Source: Corynebacterium faecale
GTDB taxonomy: Bacteria; Actinomycetota; Actinomycetes; Mycobacteriales; Mycobacteriaceae
Direction of reading: 5' to 3'
DNA: 64,000 nucleotides
Assembly (NCBI RefSeq): GCF_030408735.1
Contig: NZ_CP047204.1
Coordinates: forward strand, 2,046,001 to 2,110,000
The position numbers were made by a program, and so were the translations under genes. This document shows, piece by piece, positions 9,279 to 62,502 of the stretch (positions within the stretch are counted from its first letter, which is position 1; every line of letters begins with the position of its first letter). Under the pieces are notes generated by a model. That model saw nothing but the letters and a program-made list of their open reading frames with translations. It made no database searches and was not told the DNA's origin.

Positions 9279-9911
9279 CTAGAAACGCACCGCGGAGTGG
9301 AACGGCATGTAATCGAGGGAATGCTCGGACAGCGGGGTGGAGCTGTTCAGAGCGTGGATGACAGTGCCGTGACCGGAGTAGATGCCAACGTGGGTGGCGC
9401 CGGAGTAGAACGCAACGATGTCACCAGCCTGCAGGTTGGAGTAGGCAACAGGAGTTCCCTGGGAAGCCTGTGCCTGCGAGGTGCGTGGGATGGACTTGCC
9501 GACCTGGCTGTATGCCCAGGAAGTCAGACCGGAGCAGTCAAAGGCGTTAGGGCCGACAGCACCCCAGCCATATGGAGCACCGATCTTGGAACGCGCGGCG
9601 TCCACGATGGCCTGTCCGCCGCTCTGAACAGGAGCTGCCTCAACAGCTGGTGGTGCCTCAACGACGGCAGCGTAGGCCGCAGGAGCTGCCTGGCTGGACA
9701 GAGCCGGGATCCACTGGTCAATGCCGGGGATGTTGTTCAGGCCCGGGGTGTTCTCAATTCCGGCGATCTCAACAGAGATGTCGGTGTTCGGGATGAAGAC
9801 CTCTGCAGCTTGTGCCGGGTTGGTGAGGACGGCGGTGGCGCCGAGTGCGGCTGCGGAAACTGCAGCTGCATTGCGGGTAACGCGGGTGTTGCTGCGACGG
9901 TGCTTGCCCAT
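9279..9911 (-). CDS. nlpC: Secreted NlpC/P60 cell-wall endopeptidase
   Basis: The 210-residue exported protein has a basic n-region and hydrophobic core (MGKHRRSNTRVTRNAAAVSA), a cleavage region near AQAAE, an Ala/Pro-rich linker and a C-terminal NlpC/P60 domain. The catalytic Cys is in FDCSGLTSW, with His residues in THVGIYSGHG and VIHAL. It should cut stem peptides in peptidoglycan during growth or division. The ATG at 9911 has GGAG nine bases upstream. The 5' leader is a c-di-AMP riboswitch (separate entry), so expression responds to that second messenger. It lacks the long coiled coil of the paralogue at 7987. Confidence 0.9.
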   Translation of the reverse strand: MGKHRRSNTRVTRNAAAVSAAALGATAVLTNPAQAAEVFIPNTDISVEIAGIENTPGLNNIPGIDQWIPALSSQAAPAAYAAVVEAPPAVEAAPVQSGGQAIVDAARSKIGAPYGWGAVGPNAFDCSGLTSWAYSQVGKSIPRTSQAQASQGTPVAYSNLQAGDIVAFYSGATHVGIYSGHGTVIHALNSSTPLSEHSLDYMPFHSAVRF

Positions 9912-9938
9912 GTGATGAAACTCCAAATCTTCCTGTTG

Positions 9939-10126
9939 GCCTACCGGGTTAGCTGTCGGATTCGGAGCGGAAGGCCCCTATCCCCACTCCCTTCCGATCA
10001 ATTCGTTGAACTGTTCGGACCCTTGTGGAGAATTCACCCCAGGAACTCTGTGGTTCCCCGGTTCGCGAAGCTTCTCGTGTTTAATCCTTGGGAGGGACTT
10101 TGTTCGAGAAGCTGCTTCGCGATTAA
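9939..10126 (-). ncRNA. ydaO/yuaA-class c-di-AMP riboswitch
   Basis: The minus strand carries the class signatures in order: a 5' arm with TCGCGAAGC (10105-10122), the paired arm at 10062-10077, GGGGAACCA, GGGGTGAAT, TCCGCTCCGAATCCGACAG and the terminal CAGCTAACCCGGTAGGC. These match the ydaO/yuaA aptamer. It ends only 28 bases before the nlpC start codon, with no hairpin and U-run between, so control by Shine-Dalgarno access or a terminator formed within the aptamer is more likely than a separate downstream terminator. This class often precedes wall-hydrolase genes in Actinobacteria. Confidence 0.93.
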
Positions 10127-36665: not shown

Positions 36666-38099
36666 GTGGCGTTTAACACCCCGGAAGAAGTAACCAAGTT
36701 CATCAAGGATGAAAACGTTGAGTTCGTGGACGTTCGATTCACCGACCTTCCCGGTACCGAGCAGCACTTCAGCATCCCGGCCTCTGCATTCGACGAGGAT
36801 GCGATGGAGGAGGGCCTGGCCTTCGACGGTTCCTCCATCCGTGGCTTCACCACCATCGATGAATCCGACATGAACTTGCTGCCCGATCTGGCCACCGCCA
36901 AGATTGATCCGTTCCGCAAGGCCAAGACACTGAACATCAAGTTCTTTGTCCACGACCCCTTCACGCGCGAAGCATTCTCCCGCGATCCACGGAATGTGGC
37001 GCGCAAGGCCGAGCAGTACCTGGCATCCACCGGCATTGCGGATACCTGCAACTTCGGCGCCGAGGCAGAGTTCTACCTCTTCGATTCCGTCCGTTACTCC
37101 ACCGATGTCAACGCCGCGTTCTACCAGGTGGATACCAACGAGGGCTGGTGGAACCGTGGACGTGAGACCAACCTGGACGGCACCCCGAACACCGGTTCAA
37201 AAAACCGCATGAAGGGTGGCTACTTCCCCGTCGCACCTTATGACCAGACCGTGGACATCCGCGATGAGATGGTGGGCAACCTGCGCAATGCCGGTTTCCA
37301 CCTCGAGCGTTTCCACCACGAGGTCGGCGGTGGCCAGCAGGAGATCAACTACCGCTTCAACACCCTGCTGCATGCGGCTGATGATATCCAGACCTTTAAG
37401 TACATCATCAAGAACACTGCCGCTCTGCACGGCAAGGCCGCCACCTTCATGCCGAAGCCACTGGCTGGTGACAACGGTTCCGGTATGCACGCCCACCAGT
37501 CCCTGTGGAAGGACGGCAAGCCACTCTTCCACGATGAGTCCGGATATGCGGGTCTCTCCGATATCGCCCGCTATTACATCGGCGGCATCCTGCACCACGC
37601 CGGCGCCGTCCTGGCCTTCACCAACCCGACGCTGAACTCTTATCACCGCCTGGTTCCCGGCTTCGAGGCTCCGATCAACCTCGTGTACTCACAGCGCAAC
37701 CGTTCCGCTGCCGTGCGTATCCCAATCACCGGTTCCAACCCGAAGGCCAAGCGCATTGAGTTCCGTGCTCCGGACCCATCAGGCAACCCATACCTGGGCT
37801 TCGCCGCCATGATGATGGCCGGCCTGGACGGTGTGAAGAACCGCATCGAGCCCCATGCACCGGTGGACAAGGATCTCTATGAGCTCCCGCCGGAGGAGGC
37901 TGCCTCCATTCCGCAGGCCCCGACCTCACTCGAGGCGTCACTGAAGGCCCTTCAGGAGGATTCCGACTTCCTCACCGAGTCCGATGTGTTCACCGAGGAC
38001 CTCATCGAGGCCTACATCCAGTACAAGTATGACAACGAGATCACCCCGGTCCGCCTGCGCCCGACCCCGCAGGAATTCGAGATGTATTTCGACTGCTAG
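36666..38099 (+). CDS. glnA: Glutamine synthetase I (adenylylatable)
   Basis: It makes glutamine from glutamate and ammonia, as a cytosolic dodecamer. The product has 477 residues from the GTG with AGGAG in front. Landmarks are [15 protein letters not shown] with metal-binding Glu, [34 protein letters not shown] and the adenylylation site Tyr in [10 protein letters not shown]. GlnE is present at 57985, so post-translational control is expected. The leader is about 105 bases long and the promoter overlaps an AmtR-like box. A paralogue with the same features lies at 48501. Confidence 0.97.
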
Positions 38100-42474: not shown

Positions 42475-44817
42475 ATGACTGATACTTTGGCCAACCCCTC
42501 AGCAGACGCGTCCGCCTGCCCATACCTCAACGGTGAGATGGTTGATCTCGAGGCCCTGAGTAATCGCAAGAGCCTCTCCGATGAGAAGTTCGATGCCCTG
42601 GGTGCTGAATTCGTCAACGATCCCTGGGGACATACCGAGTGGTCCTTCCATAACGAGCCGGTCTTCTATTCCCACAAGCTGGGCTACTGGGTGGTCACCC
42701 GCTATGAAGACATCATGAAGATCTTCAAGGACACCGAGAATTACTCGGCCACCAACGCCCTCCAGAAGGCGGTGCCACTGTCAGATGAAGCCAAGGATGT
42801 TCTTGATGAATACGGATACGATTTCCGCGACACCATCGTCAACACCGATGAACCTATCCACACTCCCCGCCGTCGCGCACTGGAAGAGCCCTTTAAGGTT
42901 GAGCAGCTCCGCAAACTGGAAGGGGTTGCCCGCAAGACAGTCGACAGCTACATCGACCAGTTCATCGCCGATGGTGAAGTTGACCTTTATAAGGACCTCC
43001 TGCACATCTCCCCACTGACTGTGGCCCTGCAGTTCATGGGCATCCCTGCGGAGGATATGGCGAAGATCCATGAGTACTCAATGGCCCACGCCACCAGTAC
43101 CTGGGGCAAACCTGCACCCGGCGAGGACATCAAGGTCGCAGAAACCAACGGTAAGTTCTGGCAGCACTCCCAAAAGGTGCTGGCCAAGCTCATGGCCGAT
43201 GAGAACGCAGAGGGCTGGGTGCCCCATTCCATCCGCGCACACCGCGAAGACCCGGATGCTGTTCCGATGTACTACCTGCGGTCCAAGACGATGTCCGCCG
43301 TCACCGCCGCGCATGACACCACCTCCAACTCCGCGTCCAACCTGTTTATCTTCCTGCAGACCGAACGCCCTGACCTGTGGAAGCTGCTCCTGCAGAAGCC
43401 TGAGCTGATTCCCAACGCGGTGGAGGAATCCCTGCGACTCAACGGTGGTTCACATGCCTGGCGTCGCAAGACCGTCAATGAGGTCGAGGTTCGCGGAGTC
43501 ACCATCCCCGCCGGCGAGGATGTTCTCCTGGTGACATCAGTGGCCAACCGTGACCCTGAGGTCTTCCCCGATCCGCATACTTTCGACCTGTACCGCGATA
43601 ACGTGACCAAGCACATGACCTTCGGATATGGCATCCACCAGTGCATGGGCCGCAACCTGGCACGCATGCAGATGCAGATTCTTTTCCAGCAGATCCTCAA
43701 GCGTCTCCCCCACATCAACATCGTTCAAGATCAGGACTTCGGACGCCTGCCCTCGATCTCCTTCCGTGGGCCACAGTCCATCAAGGCAACCTGGGATGCC
43801 TCCATCAACCCGGAGAACTTCGGCCCGGTTTCGGAGCAGAACCCGACCATCGTCTACAACGGCCCGGGGCGTGAACTGCGCACCCGCACCATGGTGGTTT
43901 CCGCCACCCAGGACTCAACTGATCGCATCCGTCGGATCACTCTGACCAACATGGATGGCACCGATCTTCCCAAGGCCTTCTCCGGTGCCCACATTGAGAT
44001 CAACGCCGGCGGTCTCAACCGCCAGTATTCACTGGTGAACGAAACACCAAATGAGTGGGAAATTGCTGTTCAGTTGGAGGAGGACAGCCGTGGCGGTTCC
44101 AGGTGGATCCATGAAAACCTCAAGCCTGGTTCCCTGGTGGAGGTCCGCGGACCACGTCATAATTTCCGCTTCAATAAAAACGCCCACAAGCTGGTCCTCG
44201 TCGGCGCGGGAATTGGCATCACACCGATGCTCGCCATGGCAGATGAAGCGAAGCGGGAAGGCATTGATTATGAACTGCACTACTCAGGCAGTTCGAAGCA
44301 GAGCATGGCCTATATGGAGCGCATCGTCCGTGATCACGGTGGCACCGCGGAGTTCTACATCTCCGACGAGGGAACCCGCATGGATGTCTCCCAGTTCGCC
44401 GGACGTTATGAAAAAGGAGTCCAGCTTCTGACCTGTGGCCCGGATCGTTTCACCAACGCTGTTATTGAAGCCACCACCGGCTGGCCGGAGGATACCGTCC
44501 GTCGGGAATCCTTCACCGCCACCACCCTGGTCGATGCATCCAAGAACAAGGCCTTCACCGTGGTCAAGAACTCCACGGGCGAGGAATTCGAGGTTCCCGC
44601 AAACATGACGCTGCTTGAAACACTCGAGGCAGCCGGAGAAGATCTCTATGCGGAGTGCCGTGAAGGTATCTGTGGCACCTGTGAGGTGGGAATCATCTCC
44701 GGCGAGGCGGAGCACCATGATGTCATTCTCTCCGAGAAGGAAAAGCGTGAGAATAACGCACTCATGACCTGCGTTTCCCGTGGCCGTTGCGGTGACAAGT
44801 TAGTCCTGGATATCTAG
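42475..44817 (+). CDS. Self-sufficient cytochrome P450 (P450-reductase-ferredoxin fusion)
   Basis: A 780-residue fusion in the order of class VII (CYP116B-like) enzymes. The P450 domain (about residues 1-445) has the I-helix motif TAAHDTTS, ExxR in EESLR and the heme loop FGYGIHQCMG. It is followed by a phthalate-dioxygenase-reductase-like part with a flavin-binding RQYSL and the nicotinamide motif VGAGIGITPM, and a C-terminal plant-type [2Fe-2S] domain with CREGICGTC and a later Cys in LMTCVS. It should oxidise a small substrate with NAD(P)H and O2 without separate partners. Neighbours (ornithine-cyclodeaminase and glutamine synthetase homologues) hint at an amine or N-heterocycle substrate, which is inference. 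Confidence 0.92.
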   Translation: MTDTLANPSADASACPYLNGEMVDLEALSNRKSLSDEKFDALGAEFVNDPWGHTEWSFHNEPVFYSHKLGYWVVTRYEDIMKIFKDTENYSATNALQKAVPLSDEAKDVLDEYGYDFRDTIVNTDEPIHTPRRRALEEPFKVEQLRKLEGVARKTVDSYIDQFIADGEVDLYKDLLHISPLTVALQFMGIPAEDMAKIHEYSMAHATSTWGKPAPGEDIKVAETNGKFWQHSQKVLAKLMADENAEGWVPHSIRAHREDPDAVPMYYLRSKTMSAVTAAHDTTSNSASNLFIFLQTERPDLWKLLLQKPELIPNAVEESLRLNGGSHAWRRKTVNEVEVRGVTIPAGEDVLLVTSVANRDPEVFPDPHTFDLYRDNVTKHMTFGYGIHQCMGRNLARMQMQILFQQILKRLPHINIVQDQDFGRLPSISFRGPQSIKATWDASINPENFGPVSEQNPTIVYNGPGRELRTRTMVVSATQDSTDRIRRITLTNMDGTDLPKAFSGAHIEINAGGLNRQYSLVNETPNEWEIAVQLEEDSRGGSRWIHENLKPGSLVEVRGPRHNFRFNKNAHKLVLVGAGIGITPMLAMADEAKREGIDYELHYSGSSKQSMAYMERIVRDHGGTAEFYISDEGTRMDVSQFAGRYEKGVQLLTCGPDRFTNAVIEATTGWPEDTVRRESFTATTLVDASKNKAFTVVKNSTGEEFEVPANMTLLETLEAAGEDLYAECREGICGTCEVGIISGEAEHHDVILSEKEKRENNALMTCVSRGRCGDKLVLDI

Positions 44818-45141: not shown

Positions 45142-45182
45142 TACTGAGCGACTCTCCCCGGGCTACCGGGGAACACACCATA

Positions 45183-45238
45183 AGCTGCCCCCGTGTTTCA
45201 CAGGTATTTTTCCTGAGAGACAGGGGCAGCTGTCTTAT
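45183..45238 (+). terminator. Terminator of the P450 operon
   Basis: AGCTGCCCC (45183-45191) pairs with GGGGCAGCT (45223-45231); T-rich loop and TGTCTTAT after the stem. Confidence 0.6.
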
Positions 45239-45494
45239 CTACCGGTCTGCTGGAACTACACCCCCGGTGATCCGACCACCAGAGACTTCTGCATACAACC
45301 TGCAGGCGGTGTACTGCTCTCATCATCATGGTGAGATATACAGATTCGCCTTGAGGCCGGCACCCCTACCCCGGCGAGCGGTTCGTGGGGAAGGTTTAAG
45401 AATAGTCCTGTGTGAGCCTTCAGCTGCAGGAATGTTCCTCGATGTGGTGGCAGCCACATATCTGGGAGGAACCCATCCAAGTCCCCTCGAAAAC

Positions 45495-45770
45495 CCCATT
45501 CGGGGGTGAGGTGATGAGTGGCTGCTACGGCACCGGGTTTATCCCGCCTCACCTTGTCTTATCCCCACGTCCACCAATGCTTATCAGTTAAAACCAATGA
45601 ATTTTCTCAGACCAGCAGGTTTTATTTATGTAGTCTCAGGGTTTGAAGACATCACCGCGCGAGATGCAGTTTCGGGTTACAAGGCGGTCCCCGTCTTCAG
45701 GGCGCGGCCGTTGAAGCGTGCCTGGGAGCGTCACTTGAACCCCGCCTAGAAAGGTATATGTGAGCTCCCC
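45495..45770. repeat. Diverged upstream-region duplicate, copy A
   Basis: From CCCCATTCGGGGGTGA through CGGGTTT, GCCTCACCT, CCAGCAGGTTTT and TTATGTA to GTGAGCTC, this stretch aligns with about 48050-48305 (copy B). Identity is about 65-75% in the outer part and about 90% in the leader core, by hand alignment. Confidence 0.75.
45639..45759 (+). ncRNA. Candidate cis-regulatory leader RNA, copy A
   Basis: The predicted transcript starts just after TATGTA (45627-45632). P1 is TGAAGAC/GTCTTCA (45644-45650 with 45693-45699) and P2 is ACCGC/GCGGT (45654-45658 with 45684-45688). They enclose CGA-GATGCAGTT-TCG and a GGGTTAC strand. GGGTT (45674-45678) can also pair with AACCC (45738-45742), six bases before the Shine-Dalgarno GAAAGG (45749-45754) of the following gene, which would give a pseudoknot-like switch. 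The core is about 90% identical to copy B at 48198. I do not know this motif. Confidence 0.55.
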
Positions 45771-46920
45771 TAACGCAAACAACACCCGTATTGATTTCCT
45801 CTATCTCAATGAAGAGGACATGGTTGCAGCAGGTGTGACCGACTCCGCCCGCTGTGTGGAGACGATGGAAGAGACCCTCATCCTCCTGGCTGATGGTGAC
45901 TACCGCATGGCAGGCGCGTCTGCGAACTCCCACGGCGCACAGATCAACTTTCCGGAAAACCCGGAGCACGACGGCATGCCCGCCGACGGTCCTGACCGTC
46001 GTTTCATGGCCATGCCCGCCTACCTCGGTGGTCGTTTCCGCTCCACTGGTGTGAAGTGGTACGGCTCCAACACCGAGAACCGCAAGCGTGGCCTTCCCCG
46101 TTCCATCCACGTTTTTGTGCTTAACGACGCCGACACCGGTGCGCCCCAGGCCATCATGTCGGCCAACCTCTTGTCCGCCTACCGCACCGGTGCCGTTCCT
46201 GGTGTGGGTGTCAAGCACCTGGCCATCAAGGATGCCGAAACTGTCGGCATCATCGGCCCCGGCGTGATGAGTCGCACCATCTTCGCCTCCGCCCTGTCCC
46301 AGCGCCCGGGCATCAAGCACCTGAAGATCAAGGGACGCTCCCCTGAATCCACCCAGCGTGTGGTCGAATGGTTCCGTGAGAACTACCCGCAGCTTGAATC
46401 AGTAGACGTCGTGGACACCGAACAGGCTGCGATCGAAGGCTCCGATATCCTCATCGCCGGAACATCCACCTCACCGGATGGTCCTTCGGGCTTCCCCTAC
46501 TTCAAACGCGAGTGGATCAAGCCGGGTGCCCTCATCCTGTGCCCTGCCGCTGCACGTTTCGACGATGATTTCATTACATCCGATGAAGCCAACCTCGTGG
46601 TTGATTACACCGGTCTGTACTCCGAGTGGTTCCACGAAAATGGTCCAGACGTCACCTACGAGCAGCTACTGGGTATCCCCGGTAACCGTTGGTGGGATAT
46701 GTCCGTCGAAGGCACCCTTGCCTCAGAGCGGCTGGTCAACATCGGTGACATCGCTTCGGGTAAGGCACCCGGACGGATCAATGATGAGCAGATCTTCTGC
46801 TACTCCATCGGCGGCATGCCCGTCGAAGATGTCGCCTGGGCCTACGATGTTTACCACAACGCTCTGGAAAAGGGCATCGGTACCTCTCTGAATCTGTGGG
46901 ATGTCCCAGTTCTGAAGTAA
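45760..46920 (+). CDS. Ornithine cyclodeaminase / mu-crystallin family protein
   Basis: A 386-residue NAD(P)-dependent member of the family that includes ornithine cyclodeaminase, alanine dehydrogenase and imine reductases. Features are KWYGSN, the conserved SAYRTGAVPGVG segment and the Rossmann loop GIIGPGVMSRT. Similar proteins carry the name 'tyramine oxidase subunit B', but no amine oxidase is adjacent. GAAAGG precedes the GTG start by 5 bases. The gene is headed by leader copy A. A role in reducing or deaminating a cyclic imine or amino acid is plausible; the substrate is unknown. Confidence 0.85.
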   Translation: MSSPNANNTRIDFLYLNEEDMVAAGVTDSARCVETMEETLILLADGDYRMAGASANSHGAQINFPENPEHDGMPADGPDRRFMAMPAYLGGRFRSTGVKWYGSNTENRKRGLPRSIHVFVLNDADTGAPQAIMSANLLSAYRTGAVPGVGVKHLAIKDAETVGIIGPGVMSRTIFASALSQRPGIKHLKIKGRSPESTQRVVEWFRENYPQLESVDVVDTEQAAIEGSDILIAGTSTSPDGPSGFPYFKREWIKPGALILCPAAARFDDDFITSDEANLVVDYTGLYSEWFHENGPDVTYEQLLGIPGNRWWDMSVEGTLASERLVNIGDIASGKAPGRINDEQIFCYSIGGMPVEDVAWAYDVYHNALEKGIGTSLNLWDVPVLK

Positions 46921-47214
46921 ATCGACGGGGATTCACACCCGCGGTTGGTGCACCAGTGAGTGCGGGCATTCCGGATACATCGACGAGTCCGTTAAGCAGG
47001 GTTTCGTGGATGGAAGATCCGCACCGCAATTCAGCCGTGTCCAGGGATGGTGGTCCCGCATTCGGTCGTCGAAAAGCTCTCTGCCCGCAGGCCGGCGAGC
47101 CCGGCCTGTCAGAGGGAATCAGCACAGCGCACCTGCACATAGTTTGATCGTGGTCGTTCGCAGACTGGTAGCTTTACCCTGGCAATGTGGTCTCCAGCAC
47201 GGTTGAATAGAGGG

Positions 47215-47985
47215 ATGAACAAGATAGCCGATCACCCTGCCTTGACCATGCTGGCCCGAGGCGGCTTCATCGTCCTCGGCATCGTGCACATTCTCATCGG
47301 TTGGATCGCTGTCCAGATCGCGACGGGATCCGGTGGCGGCGAGGCCTCCAACACCGGTGCCCTGGCGGCTGTAGCTGAAGCCCCCGGTGGGCAGATCCTG
47401 CTCTGGGCCGCGGTGTTCTGTCTCGCAGCGCTGGGATTGTGGCGGTTGAGCCAGGTGGTCACCGGCCGGGATCTCAAGGAAAAGGGCAAAGGCGCAGTCC
47501 TCGCGGTGGTCTACCTGTCCCTGGCTTTCACCACAGCCACCTTCGCCCGCGGGGAAAGCACCTCTGACAGCGAGACCGCCACGGATGTCACTGCCACGGT
47601 GCTGGCCCAACCCTGGGGCGATATCGCGGTCATGATAGCCGGGCTGGTGGTGGTGGGTGTGGGCCTGTACAACCTCAAAACTGGCGCCACCAAGGGTTTC
47701 CGGGAAGAGCTGGAAGCAGGAGCAGAAGCCGGCCAGGTCGGTTCAGCCATCGTCCTCGCAGGCATGGTCGGTTATATCGCCCGTGGTATCGCCTTCTCCG
47801 TCCTGGGCGGGCTCATTATCTGGGCCGGCTGGGCCAATGATCCGGAGCAGGCGGCTGGGCTCGACGCCGCCCTGCGCACCCTGGGGGAACAACCCGCAGG
47901 CAGTATCCTTCTCATCATCATCGGCGTGGGTCTGGCCCTCTATGGCCTGTATTCAATCGCCCGTGCCCGTTATGTTCGGATGTGA
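47215..47985 (+). CDS. DUF1206 membrane protein
   Basis: A 256-residue membrane protein with three repeats of a two-helix unit (LARGGFIVLGIVHILIGW..., DIAVMIAGLVVVGVGLYN..., LAGMVGYIARGIAFSVLGGL...), as in the DUF1206 family of Actinobacteria and Cyanobacteria, whose function is unknown. The loops are acidic and Gly-rich. I use the ATG at 47215; a GTG at 47185 is an alternative. It sits between the ornithine-cyclodeaminase-family gene and leader copy B, about 300 bases after the former. Confidence 0.85.
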   Translation: MNKIADHPALTMLARGGFIVLGIVHILIGWIAVQIATGSGGGEASNTGALAAVAEAPGGQILLWAAVFCLAALGLWRLSQVVTGRDLKEKGKGAVLAVVYLSLAFTTATFARGESTSDSETATDVTATVLAQPWGDIAVMIAGLVVVGVGLYNLKTGATKGFREELEAGAEAGQVGSAIVLAGMVGYIARGIAFSVLGGLIIWAGWANDPEQAAGLDAALRTLGEQPAGSILLIIIGVGLALYGLYSIARARYVRM

Positions 47986-48049
47986 AAACGCTCAGTCCCA
48001 GATACCGTGACAGCACAGGCTGCGGGATGCCCATTCACCGTTCCCTCCA

Positions 48050-48305
48050 GCCCCCTTCCGGGGGTGAACTGGGATGATGGATTTTTGATGTCGGGTTTTG
48101 CATGGCTCACCTCGCCTTATTCCCTGAATCATGGACCACTTATCGTGAAAAACCTGTGAATTCTCCCCTGCCAGCAGGTTTTCCTTATGTATCCTCGTGA
48201 GTTGAAGACATAACCGCTCGAGATGCAGTGTCGGGTTTCACGGCGGTCCCCGTCTTTTCAGGGAACGCCGCTTAAACCCCACGTGGAAAGGTCCAAGTGA
48301 GCTCG
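48050..48305. repeat. Diverged upstream-region duplicate, copy B
   Basis: Partner of 45495-45770. The similarity ends a few codons into the following frame: both copies read GTGAGCTC.CCCTA at their start. Confidence 0.75.
48198..48296 (+). ncRNA. Candidate cis-regulatory leader RNA, copy B
   Basis: The same architecture as copy A: TGAAGAC (48203-48209) pairs with GTCTT-TT-CA (48252-48260, two-base bulge), ACCGC (48213-48217) with GCGGT (48243-48247), with the CGA-GATGCAGTG-TCG hairpin between. GGGTTT (48233-48238) can pair with AAACCC (48274-48279) before the Shine-Dalgarno GGAAAGG (48285-48291). Where copy A has GGGTTA and GAACCC, copy B has GGGTTT and AAACCC, so the alternative pairing is kept and lengthened. 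Confidence 0.55.
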
Positions 48306-48446
48306 CCCTACCCCAGCACCCCCGATATCGGCGTCTTGACGCCTGCTCAGGGTCGCGGCTATCTGGCTGGTGCCTTTCTGAGAACACTGCGAAAAGGAGG
48401 GGCCGGAACCGAACTCTCAATCTGCGGGGCGCCCCTCCTGACATAG
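48297..48446 (+). CDS. Short leader ORF upstream of the glnA paralogue, 49 residues
   Basis: A GTG-to-TAG frame directly after leader copy B, with GGAAAGG 5 bases before its start. It opens with VSSP, like the ornithine-cyclodeaminase-family protein after copy A, then diverges (YPSTPDIGVLTPAQGRGYL and so on). It may be a functional leader peptide whose translation affects the glutamine synthetase 54 bases downstream, or a remnant of a truncated duplicate. Its last third overlaps a strong hairpin (separate entry). The product has no recognisable family. Confidence 0.45.
   Translation: MSSPYPSTPDIGVLTPAQGRGYLAGAFLRTLRKGGAGTELSICGAPLLT
48395..48440 (+). promoter_or_regulatory. Strong hairpin inside the short leader ORF, possible attenuator
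   Basis: GGAGGGGC and GCCCCTCC form a perfect 8-bp stem with an approximately 29-base loop, 60 bases before the glnA-paralogue start. No U-run follows, so it is not a simple terminator. Confidence 0.4.
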
Positions 48447-48500
48447 ACCGACAATCTCTTCCAACCCCAATCTCCCATTCTCTTGAAGGAATGATTTATC

Positions 48501-49946
48501 GTGGCCCCGAGCCCGACCACCAGCCCGGCTGACATCATGAAGTTCATCCGGGACAATGACATCAACTGGGTTGATGTTCAATTCACTGATGTCCCTGGAA
48601 CTGAACAGCACCTCTCCGTCCCCGCCGCAGCCTTCGACGAGGCCGCCATGGAAAATGGCCTGGCTTTCGACGGTTCATCGATCAGTGGTTACACCACCGT
48701 CGATGACTCAGACATGATGCTGCTGCCGGACCTGTCCACGGCCTTCATTGACCCGTTCCGGAGGTCCAAGACACTGAACATCAAGTTCTTCGTCCACGAC
48801 CCGTATACGCGTGAGCCTTTCTCCAGGGATCCCCGCAATATCGCCCGTAAAGCAGAGGAATACCTGGCCTCAACCGGCTTCGCCGACAGCTGCAACTTCG
48901 GCGCCGAAGCGGAGTTCTACATCTTCGATTCGGTGCGGTTCAGCTCCCAGACCAACGCGGCCTTCCATGAGGTGGATTCCGTTGAGGGTTGGTGGAACAG
49001 TGGTTCCCTGGAAAACCCGGACGGCAGTAGGAACCTGGGGCATAAGGTCCGGCAAAAGGGTGGATACTTCCCCGTGGCCCCTTATGACCACTTCCAGGAT
49101 CTGCGCGATACCATCGGCGAGACCCTGGCGGAGATCGGCTTCACCGTCGAACGTTCCCACCACGAGATGGGTAGTGGCGGTCAGCAGGAGATAAACTACC
49201 GCTTCAACACCCTCCTCCACGCTGCGGATGATCTACAAACCTTCAAGTACGTGGTGAAGAATACCGCCAAGGCTGTGGGGAAGTCCGCCACCTTCATGCC
49301 CAAGCCGCTGGCTGATGACGGCGGTTCCGGAATGCACATCCACCAGTCACTGTGGAAGAACGGTCTGCCGCTGTTCCATGATGAGGCGGGTTATGGAAAC
49401 CTGTCGGACATGGCCCGTTATTACGTCGGTGGTCTGCTCAAACATGCACCGTCGGTATTGGCCTTCACCAACCCCACGCTGAACTCATACAACCGCCTGG
49501 TGCCCGGTTTCGAGGCTCCGGTGAGCCTGGCCTACTCCCAGCAGAACCGGTCAGCTGCGATCCGCATTCCCGCCAGTGGCCCCAACCCCAAGGCGACCCG
49601 CATCGAGTTCCGCACTCCGGATCCTTCCGGAAACCCATATCTGGCATTCACCGCGTCGATGATGGCCGGCCTGGACGGTATCCGCAACCGCATCGAACCT
49701 GATGCGCCGCTGGATAAGGATCTGTACGAACTTCCCCCTGAGGAGGCCGCCCGGGTTGCCCAGGCACCAACCTCACTCGAACAGGCGTTGAAGGCTCTTG
49801 AGGAAGATCATGATTTCCTCACCGAGGGCAATGTGTTTACCGATGATCTGATCGAGGCCTACGTGGCCTATAAACATGACAATGAGATCACCCAGGAACG
49901 CCTGCGTCCCACTGCACTCGATTTCGAGTTGTACTACGACTGCTAG
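48501..49946 (+). CDS. Second GlnA-type glutamine synthetase (paralogue of glnA)
   Basis: The 481-residue product is closely similar along its whole length to the GlnA at 36666. It keeps the same landmarks: [36 protein letters not shown] and [12 protein letters not shown]. It also keeps the adenylylation-site Tyr in [10 protein letters not shown], so GlnE could modify it. The N-terminus has a Pro/Ser/Thr-rich start ([11 protein letters not shown]). It is preceded by leader copy B and a short ORF, not by an AmtR-like box. It may be a catabolic or conditional synthetase that recaptures ammonia, or a gamma-glutamyl ligase for another amine. The active-site residues I can see do not distinguish these. 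Confidence 0.9.
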
Positions 49947-61161: not shown

Positions 61162-62502
61162 CTAATAATCGAGGTTGGTGCGGAGTTCCCAGGGTGTGAT
61201 CTGTGCCTGGTAGTCACGCCACTCACGCCATTTATTGCGCAGGAAGTACTCGAAGACATGCTCACCCAGGATATCTGCGACCAGATCGGACCGTTCCATC
61301 AGACGCAAAGCCTGGTCGAGGCTGCTGGGGAGATCGTTGTACCCCATGGCACGACGCTCACGGAGACTCAGGGATGAAATATCGTCCTCAGCAGGATCAT
61401 CCAGTTCATATCCCTCCTTGATGCCTTTCAACCCGGCGCCGAGGAGAACCGAGAAAGCCAGGTAGGGGTTGCAGGCTGAATCAGGAATTCTGATTTCCAC
61501 ACGACGGGAACCTGCCTTGTTCAGACGATAGGTGGGGACTCGGACCAGAGCAGAGCGGTTAGACATTCCCCAGGTAGCGGCGGTGGGTGCTTCATTCCCG
61601 TAGACGATTCGTTTATAGGAGTTCACCCACTGGTTGGTCACTGCACAAAATTCCGGCGCATGACGCAGAATACCTGCGATGAACTGCCTGGCTGTACGGG
61701 AGAGCCTGAACTCATCATCTGGATCATGGAAAGCGTTGGATCCTCCCTCAAACAGGGACATGTGGGTGTGGATGGCGGAACCTGCATGGTCAGCGAAGGG
61801 TTTCGGCATGAAGGTGGCTGCCACACCCTGATCGCGGGCCACCTGTTTCATCAGATAACGGAAGGTCATCACATTATCCGCCATGGTCAGGGCATCGGCG
61901 TGACGAAGATCGATCTCCTGCTGTCCCGGCGCGGTCTCATGGTGGGAGAATTCCACGGGGATGCCCATCTCTTCAAGAGCGAGCATGGCATGGCGACGGA
62001 AATTCGGTGCCTCGTTGAAAGTGGCCTGGTCAAAATAACCGCCATTATCCGTGGGTACCGGCGGTTGACCATTAGTGCGCAAACTCTGTACCAGGAAGAA
62101 CTCGATCTCAGGCGAGACCATGCAGATGAAACCATCATCTGCTGCCAGTTGGACCTGCCTCCGGAGTACCTGGCGGGGATCAGAGAAACTCGGTTGGCCA
62201 TCAGGCATGGTGACATCACAGAACATGCGGGCAGCTTGGAGCCGTGAGGTTTCCGCTTCCAGTGGGAGGATCTGGAAGGTGGAGGGATCCGGCCGGGCAA
62301 TGGTGTCCGCTTCGGAGATCCGGGCATATCCTTCGATTGCTGATCCATCGAATCCGATGCCCTCTTCAAAGGCGGACTCCAACTCTGCGGGGGCGACCAC
62401 CACCGATTTCAACTGGCCGACGATGTCAGTGAACCAGAGTCGGACGAATTTGATGTCCCGTTCATCGATGGTGCTGAGCACAAATTCCTGTTGGCTGTTC
62501 AT
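61162..62502 (-). CDS. glnA2: Glutamine synthetase-like protein GlnA2
   Basis: A 446-residue member of the GS I-alpha-type branch. It keeps the fold motifs (RLWFTDIVG, EIEFFLV, GSAIHTHMSLFEG, NRSALVRVP, RRVEIRIPDSACNPYLAF) but lacks the Tyr adenylylation loop found in the two GlnA proteins, so GlnE should not modify it. In C. glutamicum GlnA2 is not essential for glutamine supply. TAAATT lies exactly 7 bases before the ATG at 62502, predicting a leaderless mRNA. It is cotranscribed with glnE. Confidence 0.95.
   Translation of the reverse strand: MNSQQEFVLSTIDERDIKFVRLWFTDIVGQLKSVVVAPAELESAFEEGIGFDGSAIEGYARISEADTIARPDPSTFQILPLEAETSRLQAARMFCDVTMPDGQPSFSDPRQVLRRQVQLAADDGFICMVSPEIEFFLVQSLRTNGQPPVPTDNGGYFDQATFNEAPNFRRHAMLALEEMGIPVEFSHHETAPGQQEIDLRHADALTMADNVMTFRYLMKQVARDQGVAATFMPKPFADHAGSAIHTHMSLFEGGSNAFHDPDDEFRLSRTARQFIAGILRHAPEFCAVTNQWVNSYKRIVYGNEAPTAATWGMSNRSALVRVPTYRLNKAGSRRVEIRIPDSACNPYLAFSVLLGAGLKGIKEGYELDDPAEDDISSLSLRERRAMGYNDLPSSLDQALRLMERSDLVADILGEHVFEYFLRNKWREWRDYQAQITPWELRTNLDY

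Follow-up and report, generated by a model that had tools for sequence, protein, structure and literature searches.

Two copies of a conserved leader RNA were found in a 64,000-nucleotide stretch of the Corynebacterium faecale genome (assembly GCF_030408735.1, contig NZ_CP047204.1, positions 2,046,001 to 2,110,000; hereafter the window), one before an ornithine-cyclodeaminase-family (OCD-family) gene and the other before the remnant of a second such gene. By computation, these copies and five others from the genus are homologous and conserved, share a consensus fold of three helices (P1, P2 and C) and keep the pairing of two alternative folds, A and B, which exclude each other. On the modelled folds, the element is probably a bistable, cis-acting leader that would control the translation of the OCD operon. 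Features given by coordinates are on the + strand unless otherwise stated.

In fold A, the 5' domain would close (P1 and P2), the P4 hairpin would form, and the freed GGGAGCgUCAC strand would form helix C, which takes in the GUG start and codons 2-4 and would turn translation off. An ACC inside the leader could also pair with the Shine-Dalgarno (SD) sequence. Fold B would pair CGYC and GGGA with the 3' strand of P2 and the CCC that follows it, and GGGUU with AACCC. As this pairing uses the GGGA/CGYC strand, helix C could not form, and translation is proposed to be on. Whatever stabilises or melts P1/P2 (a ligand, a protein, an ion or temperature) would set expression.

Leader Copies and Their Distribution

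The two cores lie at 45645-45698 (leader 1) and 48204-48257 (leader 2) and had been recognised in a first-pass annotation of the window. With three mismatches at most allowed, the core pattern matched two places in the whole source genome (G000, Corynebacterium group, 3.15 Mb) and the reversed pattern none, a result beyond chance. The cores differ at 7 of the 57 positions delimited in that annotation, which had counted about six, and the identity of the 54-nt core is 0.89. The identity of 65-75% given there for the flanks did not hold past the promoter block (0.75). The upstream blocks were 0.50 and 0.58 identical, and the segment from core to SD only 0.39, because leader 2 lacks the P4 hairpin.

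Five further copies were found, all in Corynebacterium, giving a total of seven in 6 of 242 genomes of the genus. All seven precede OCD-family starts, one of them the remnant. The models were built from four cores (R1), five copies (R2) and seven copies (R3), and R1 detected a diverged copy in locus L047 (34.6 bits). The genus searches with R2 and R3 covered all 242 genomes, under stricter search filters. R2 listed 11 genomes at E up to 0.5. The carriers were the source genome (two copies), C. hylobatis (G018), C. lemuris (G060), the metagenome-assembled genome with L047 (G139), G545 and G019. The other five (G066, G110, G348, G500 and G038; E 0.01-0.47) were weak matches that, inspected by eye, lay away from OCD matches, and they were absent with R3 at E up to 0.2. 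R3 returned the same six carriers and G543 (E 0.19). A blastn piece in G060:C25 apparently falls inside unrelated coding sequence.

The family (401 genomes) and order (397 genomes) sets were samples, which do not necessarily include other carriers. R1 listed four genomes of the family, the source genome and three weak matches (E 0.0065-0.05). The latter were taken as chance; on rescoring with R2 (E up to 10) only L039 was listed, at 12.6 bits. R3 found one genome of the order, the source genome itself (E up to 0.05). No carrier outside Corynebacterium was present in the sampled family and order genomes.

The OCD protein search of the genome contigs gave 35 loci, 13 of them in Corynebacterium. 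OCD-family genes at E up to 1e-60 were present in 72 of the 242 genus genomes and the leader in 6; most OCD genes therefore lack the element. On the OCD tree, the carriers require two changes of state, and none of 200 bootstrap trees needs only one; the starred branches force no more than one. The distribution would thus fit one origin plus a loss as well as two gains.

The leader was not matched in the plasmid or phage records searched. Chance similarity and a dispersed or mobile repeat were rejected on this result, on the two copies in the source genome and on the position of all seven before OCD starts. No Rfam 15 match was found at the window leaders at the gathering threshold, and the region 45500-48550 at E up to 5 gave three matches, all on the - strand and far below gathering. 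The six loci carrying the leader had no match at E up to 1. A known Rfam RNA was therefore rejected as the identity of the element, in agreement with the first-pass annotation, which had recognised no class. A resemblance of ACCGCG to the T-box sequence was dropped, as the Rfam scans showed no T-box match. Twenty loci around other OCD genes likewise had no Rfam match. No description of the leader was found in searches of open-licence PMC text.

A -10-like hexamer, TATGTA, precedes leader 1 (45627..45632) and leader 2 (48186..48191). All seven copies and three relatives with a short leader (L043, L044 and L046) have TTATGTA at this position, and GGTTT lies upstream of it in the seven copies and two of these three relatives. 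A scan of 45150-48550 for the sigma-70 consensus gave no match. Transcription of leader 1 would start at ~45638, consistent with the earlier suggestion that the fold begins about where transcription should start. By eye, a shared CTCACCT...TTATC or TTGATC-like box was noted upstream of TATGTA (window ~45548-45563 and before leader 2). This box is also present in L041, L042, L043, L044, L046, L047 and L089, that is, in copies with and without the element, and is perhaps an activator site.

Two Predicted Exclusive Folds

The leader 1 core comprises P1 (45645-45650/45693-45698) and P2 (45654-45658/45684-45688) with an apical region between; in leader 2 the corresponding strands are 48204-48209/48252-48257 and 48213-48217/48243-48247. 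Both window copies have P1 GAAGAC/GTCTTC, P2 ACCGC/GCGGT, a common GATGCAGT loop and GGGTT/AACCC, in line with the first-pass annotation. The six pairs of P1 and five of P2 are standard in all seven copies (77 of 77 cells). Three changes were seen in P1/P2, each one-sided and each keeping the pair: the outer G-C to G.U in copy 2, A-U to G.U in L107 and C-G to U.G in L102. The apical region differs wholly between the two clades. Candidate hairpins are CGA/UCG in the window copies and, with U.G, in L042, and UGAC/GUCA in L102 and L105; L041 has an A.C mismatch. The hairpin-loop sequence is not conserved between the clades.

The P4 hairpin follows at 45700..45723, with 45700-45706 paired to 45717-45723. 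One P4 pair varies between species as G.U, A-U and C-G. The change between A-U and C-G is both-sided, and the same pair is broken in two other copies. P4 breaks at outer or inner pairs in L107, L102 and L105 and is deleted in leader 2.

Helix C (45724..45769) was absent from the first-pass annotation. It emerged when the leader was folded with the coding sequence included, and it is part of the RNAalifold consensus. GGGAGC (45724-45729) and UCAC (45731-45734) pair with GUGA (45760-45763) and GCUCCC (45764-45769), so that GGGAGCgUCAC is matched to GUGAGCUCCC and the GUG start codon is buried. All ten pairs are possible in four OCD leaders (with G.U in three), nine in L102 and L105, and seven in leader 2. 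In the consensus fold, ACC within 45738-45742 pairs with GGU of the SD.

Helix B has the general form GGGUU/GGCG/UCCC with AACCC/CGYC/GGGA. In leader 1 (45674..45742), GGGTT 45674-45678 pairs with AACCC 45738-45742, GGCG 45683-45686 with CGTC 45729-45732, and TCCC 45688-45691 with GGGA 45724-45727. In leader 2 (48233..48279), GGGTT 48233-48237 pairs with AACCC 48275-48279, GGCG 48242-48245 with CGCC 48266-48269, and TCCC 48247-48250 with GGGA 48261-48264. Eleven of the 13 pairs are kept in the seven copies. Pair 34/97 is U-A in five copies and C-G in L105 (a both-sided change), and it is broken in L102; neither L102 nor L105 can form pair 47/83. Compensatory changes among the homologues are therefore limited to one P4 pair and one helix B pair, each broken elsewhere. 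The first-pass annotation had read GGGTTA/GAACCC versus GGGTTT/AAACCC as a pairing kept despite changes; the two versions differ by a single pair at the end of the helix, which is not a compensatory change.

Helix B uses the 3' strand of P2 and the 5' strand of helix C, together with the CCC next to P1, and so excludes both P1/P2 and helix C. With the folds enforced and the start codon not yet transcribed, the energies of the six OCD leaders (A minus B) ranged from -0.9 to +10.4 kcal/mol. The addition of 12 nt of coding sequence moved all six by 3.8 to 9.6 kcal/mol toward A, to 0 or below. Leader 2 showed no shift toward A and remained in B (A minus B +5.9 to +7.2 kcal/mol). The unconstrained minimum free energy folds, from the predicted start to +30, contained P1 and P2 in all six OCD leaders and gave fold B for leader 2. 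In the same folds of the OCD leaders, 10, 10, 9, 8, 4 and 4 of the ten helix-C pairs were in register, with GGGAG/CUCCC one register off in L041 and L042. In the model, the start codon was unpaired at 0-2% in A and 2-30% in B (six OCD leaders), and at 1% in both for leader 2. By computation, the alternative folds would couple the 5' domain to ribosome access, with the proposed 'on' fold only slightly more open.

Comparative Support and Constraint

RNAalifold of an unguided MAFFT alignment of all seven copies gave P1, P2 and C with a z-score of -3.0 (2 of 500 shuffles as low), and without copy 2 it gave P1, P2, P4 and C (z -4.0, 1 of 500). The column shuffles used preserve column conservation and not ancestry. 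A hand alignment, which leans towards structure, gave z -4.66 (0 of 1000 shuffles), and the four diverged copies alone gave z -4.86.

Conservation in the core followed the pairing of the two folds. Of its 54 columns, 28 are invariant; these comprise 19 of the 22 columns paired in A, 7 of the 9 paired in B only, and 2 of the 23 paired in neither. The comparison of 26 of 31 with 2 of 23 gave a Fisher p of 3e-8, with B having been defined after the sequences were seen. The core was also compared with fourfold-degenerate sites of the OCD gene. For the window against L041 (C. lemuris), the identities were 0.93 and 0.57, respectively, with upstream DNA at 0.49-0.54. The corresponding values were 0.91 and 0.56 for L042, 0.69 and 0.45 for L102, and 0.65 and 0.45 for L105. 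The core was more conserved than the fourfold sites in all 10 pairs without L107, the smallest margin being 0.03 (L041-L105, 0.63 vs 0.60). When compared with all third codon positions, the core was less conserved in 4 of the 10 pairs (L041 or L042 against L102 or L105). The five L107 pairs were excluded and their fourfold figures (n 111-115) are to be ignored, because the ungapped comparison crosses an indel near codon 200 and is partly out of codon register.

Several results weigh against a two-fold translational switch. Helix C pair 101/133 is C.A in three of the seven copies. The core alone gave a modest RNAalifold result (z -2.34, 0.025). When five leaders were cut at the start codon, RNAalifold gave helix B and a 5' hairpin, not P1/P2, and the covariation term was unfavourable; the fold A consensus thus depends on the inclusion of the coding start. 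Folded one at a time, the sequences had no striking stability, with z -0.08 and -1.71 in the two window copies and -1.20, -1.69 and -1.01 in three of the relatives, so that the case for structure rests on comparison. Nor was any single leader significantly complementary to its start region: p was 0.05-0.33 for the six OCD leaders and 0.77 for leader 2, and the same test gave 0.07-0.96 in 15 OCD leaders without the element. In favour of the pairing, the best partner was the same start-region site in all six OCD leaders. As the start codon is only 2-30% unpaired in enforced B, the 'on' state is not clearly predicted. Finally, the close relatives L043, L044 and L046 have the TATGTA promoter, the SD and a GGTGG start as in L047 and L105, but a short leader without the element. 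R3 gave a sub-threshold 15.8 bits (E 0.22) at the leader place of L046.

Alternative Explanations

The first-pass annotation had proposed a riboswitch or other metabolite-sensing RNA controlling translation. The structured leader, with an architecture suited to translational control, was borne out; metabolite sensing is not established, because the P1/P2 changes are one-sided, unpaired positions are hardly conserved and the copies belong to one gene family. A new class of metabolite riboswitch would be one particular form of the bistable leader, in which P1/P2 would be the aptamer for a substrate or product of the OCD and glutamine synthetase (GS) enzymes (an amine, imino acid or opine-like compound) and the A/B switch would be the expression platform. 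We regard this as rather unlikely, albeit worth entertaining. The position of the element at the predicted 5' end, the exclusive folds and the metabolic gene are consistent with it, and the guanidine-IV variant riboswitch candidate, Gd4v, likewise lies in operons for COG2423 (OCD-family) enzymes (PMC9788692). No conserved unpaired pocket was seen, with 2 of the 23 positions invariant; this is a weak test, given the few sequences and the uncertain apical alignment between the clades. The whole difference between the clades in the apical region, the single gene family and the finding of one genome in 397 in the order-wide R3 search also speak against it. The glnA-side copy is no exception to the single gene family, since the gene it led was an OCD gene that has been deleted. 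The fuller version is more tentative still: a rare translational riboswitch class of a few Corynebacterium species, which would sense a metabolite of the OCD/GS pathway (imine, amine or opine-like) via two closely balanced folds, one of them pairing the leader with the start codon and codons 2-4. As the signal, a protein is nearly as plausible as a small molecule. A regulator or an operon product could bind the P1/P2 stem or the apical hairpin and shift the A/B balance, which would suit conservation in stems and not in loops. The rarity of the leader also fits a published remark (PMC10272879) that RNA motifs of narrow distribution may bind proteins or be upstream open reading frames (uORFs) rather than riboswitches. 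No candidate protein was identified, and a hairpin-loop sequence that is unconserved between the clades argues against such binding, which we consider unlikely.

At the level of DNA, the conserved stretch close behind the promoter could bind a repressor or an activator, with the palindrome as operator. Such an element would account for the conservation of sequence as well as pairing, for the one promoter and for the GAAGAC/GTCTTC half-sites as inverted repeats. It is made improbable by the half-site spacing of 40-42 bp, by helix C, which ends in coding sequence and whose changes mostly keep pairing, and by a consensus fold that exceeds shuffles preserving column conservation. A peptide-coding leader acting by uORF attenuation, like the ilvB-II motif of Corynebacterium, first looked good because most differences between the window copies lie at third positions of one open frame. 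This frame reads FEDITARDAVSGYKAVPVF... in leader 1 and is open across the core also in leader 2 and L041; several of the window-copy differences fall at third positions of the FEDITARDAVSGYKAVPVF frame, and four copies have an AUG with a frame of 16 to 25 codons. The FEDITARDAVSGYKAVPVF frame is, however, stopped inside the core in four of the seven copies (L042, L107, L102 and L105), stop codons interrupt each of the two remaining frames in two copies, and the core lengths vary by 1-2 nt. No start codon with a comparable frame is common to all seven, and no Rho-independent terminator-like site was found on the + strand. A coding leader was accordingly disfavoured and is very improbable. Rho-independent transcription attenuation was itself rejected, as 45150-48550 has no + strand terminator-like site; three were found on the - strand versus 2.3 expected.

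Gene Neighbourhood and the Leader 2 Remnant

The SD of the OCD gene (GAAAGG) lies at 45749..45754 and the gene itself at 45760..46920. The 386-aa product matches Pfam PF02423 and NCBIfam NF004848, 'tyramine oxidase subunit B', which is a name only. The nearest solved structures by sequence are 4m54 (a putative ornithine cyclodeaminase) and a pyrroline-2-carboxylate reductase. A DUF1206 gene (47185..47985, frame as listed; the true start may be further in) lies between the two leader units, and its product is 85-86% identical to the C. lemuris/C. hylobatis homologue. A GS paralogue adjoins the OCD gene in the loci examined and directly follows it in C. lemuris and C. hylobatis. The GS paralogue after leader 2 (48501..49946, 481 aa) shares 73% identity with a further GS encoded in this genome.

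Leader 2 had been placed before this glnA paralogue in the first-pass annotation, which was correct in placing leader 1 before the OCD gene. Leader 2 directly precedes a 49-codon frame (48297..48446) with homology to OCD genes at both ends. In the 3' part, 48373-48519 aligns at 79% over 149 columns to positions 758-902 of L053 (the OCD 3' end and the OCD-glnA spacer), and L045 and L099 match similarly (76% over 118). The first 48 nt match the six leader-linked OCD starts at 27-32 positions and the C. gallinarum OCD gene at 20. Judged by this homology, the frame is what an internal deletion has left of an OCD gene, and leader 2 therefore once headed an OCD-GS operon. With P4 and three of the ten helix-C pairs lost, leader 2 is probably decaying or regulating differently.

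The GS and a cytochrome P450 of the window are 94.6% and 90% identical to those of C. gallinarum (L045), and the GS is 96.9% identical to that of L053; the OCD and DUF1206 proteins are 92% and 85% identical to those of C. lemuris. On the OCD tree, the window protein belongs with those of C. lemuris and C. hylobatis (98/93) and is separate from the C. gallinarum/L053 group (99/100). By these sequence relationships, the locus is a mosaic, and its gene order could have arisen by a single-crossover integration and a later deletion.

Three GS homologues lie within 26 kb, at about 36678-38096 (+), 48501-49943 (+) and 61282-62481 (-), and it is the first to which the GS after leader 2 is 73% identical. 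At 42475-44817 (+), a 780-aa fusion of cytochrome P450, reductase-like and 2Fe-2S ferredoxin domains is followed by a 78-aa frame; the same order precedes OCD-GS in C. gallinarum L045. By eye, other Corynebacterium OCD genes have long upstream regions of unrelated sequence, some of them alike between species (L050, L120, L051, L109, L121, L052, L111, L112, L116, L118, L045, L097 and L099). Seven of these 13 loci were scanned against Rfam, with no match. Different lineages may put different leaders on the OCD gene. In L055 and L058 (Firmicutes), an OCD-family gene lies beside RidA-like and FAD/2Fe-2S oxidoreductase-like frames (by eye, first 40 residues), a neighbourhood that suggests imine or opine catabolism. 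Elsewhere in the window, a c-di-AMP riboswitch (RF00379, 60.9 bits) was identified at 9924-10082 (-), upstream of a frame at 9279-9926 (-) with a YGWGAVGPNAFDCSG stretch, which we take to be NlpC/P60-like. A c-di-AMP riboswitch ahead of such a gene is ordinary in actinobacteria.

Significance and Comparison with Known Systems

If the two-fold model is true, the leader would add an unlisted RNA for translation control to a genus of industrial relevance; it is small enough for quick testing, and its signal would help to reveal the substrate of the OCD-family/GS pair. Without a ligand, it would be a modest, genus-level cis-regulatory RNA. A leader kept before the partner gene after its own gene was deleted would also be a natural experiment in the decay or reuse of a regulatory RNA.

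Translational riboswitches with a sequestor/anti-sequestor platform are the general kind that the leader resembles, in that the start site is hidden or freed according to which of the predicted alternative helices captures a common strand. The leader differs in that no conserved binding pocket was seen. Gd4v shares the association with OCD-family operons; it is widespread (395 sequences from three phyla; PMC9788692), whereas the present leader is without an Rfam match. The ilvB-II motif was likewise a genus-restricted, conserved leader RNA first taken as a riboswitch candidate. It turned out to be a uORF (PMC10272879), with a conserved in-frame start, stop and terminator, whereas the present leader has no shared in-frame start or stop and no terminator.

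The nearest published kind seen is the purS motif (WRC-75-1), a resemblance by kind only (PMC11109978). This motif has six Corynebacterium representatives and is a predicted structured 5' leader of an FGAM synthase operon with a loop that is possibly an anti-SD. Both elements are thus confined to Corynebacterium, have few representatives and place a structured leader with a possible anti-SD before an operon for a glutamine-using enzyme. The gene differs, and the two were compared by description, not by sequence. In the present leader, the start codon, rather than the SD only, would be the main partner, and two exclusive folds are predicted.

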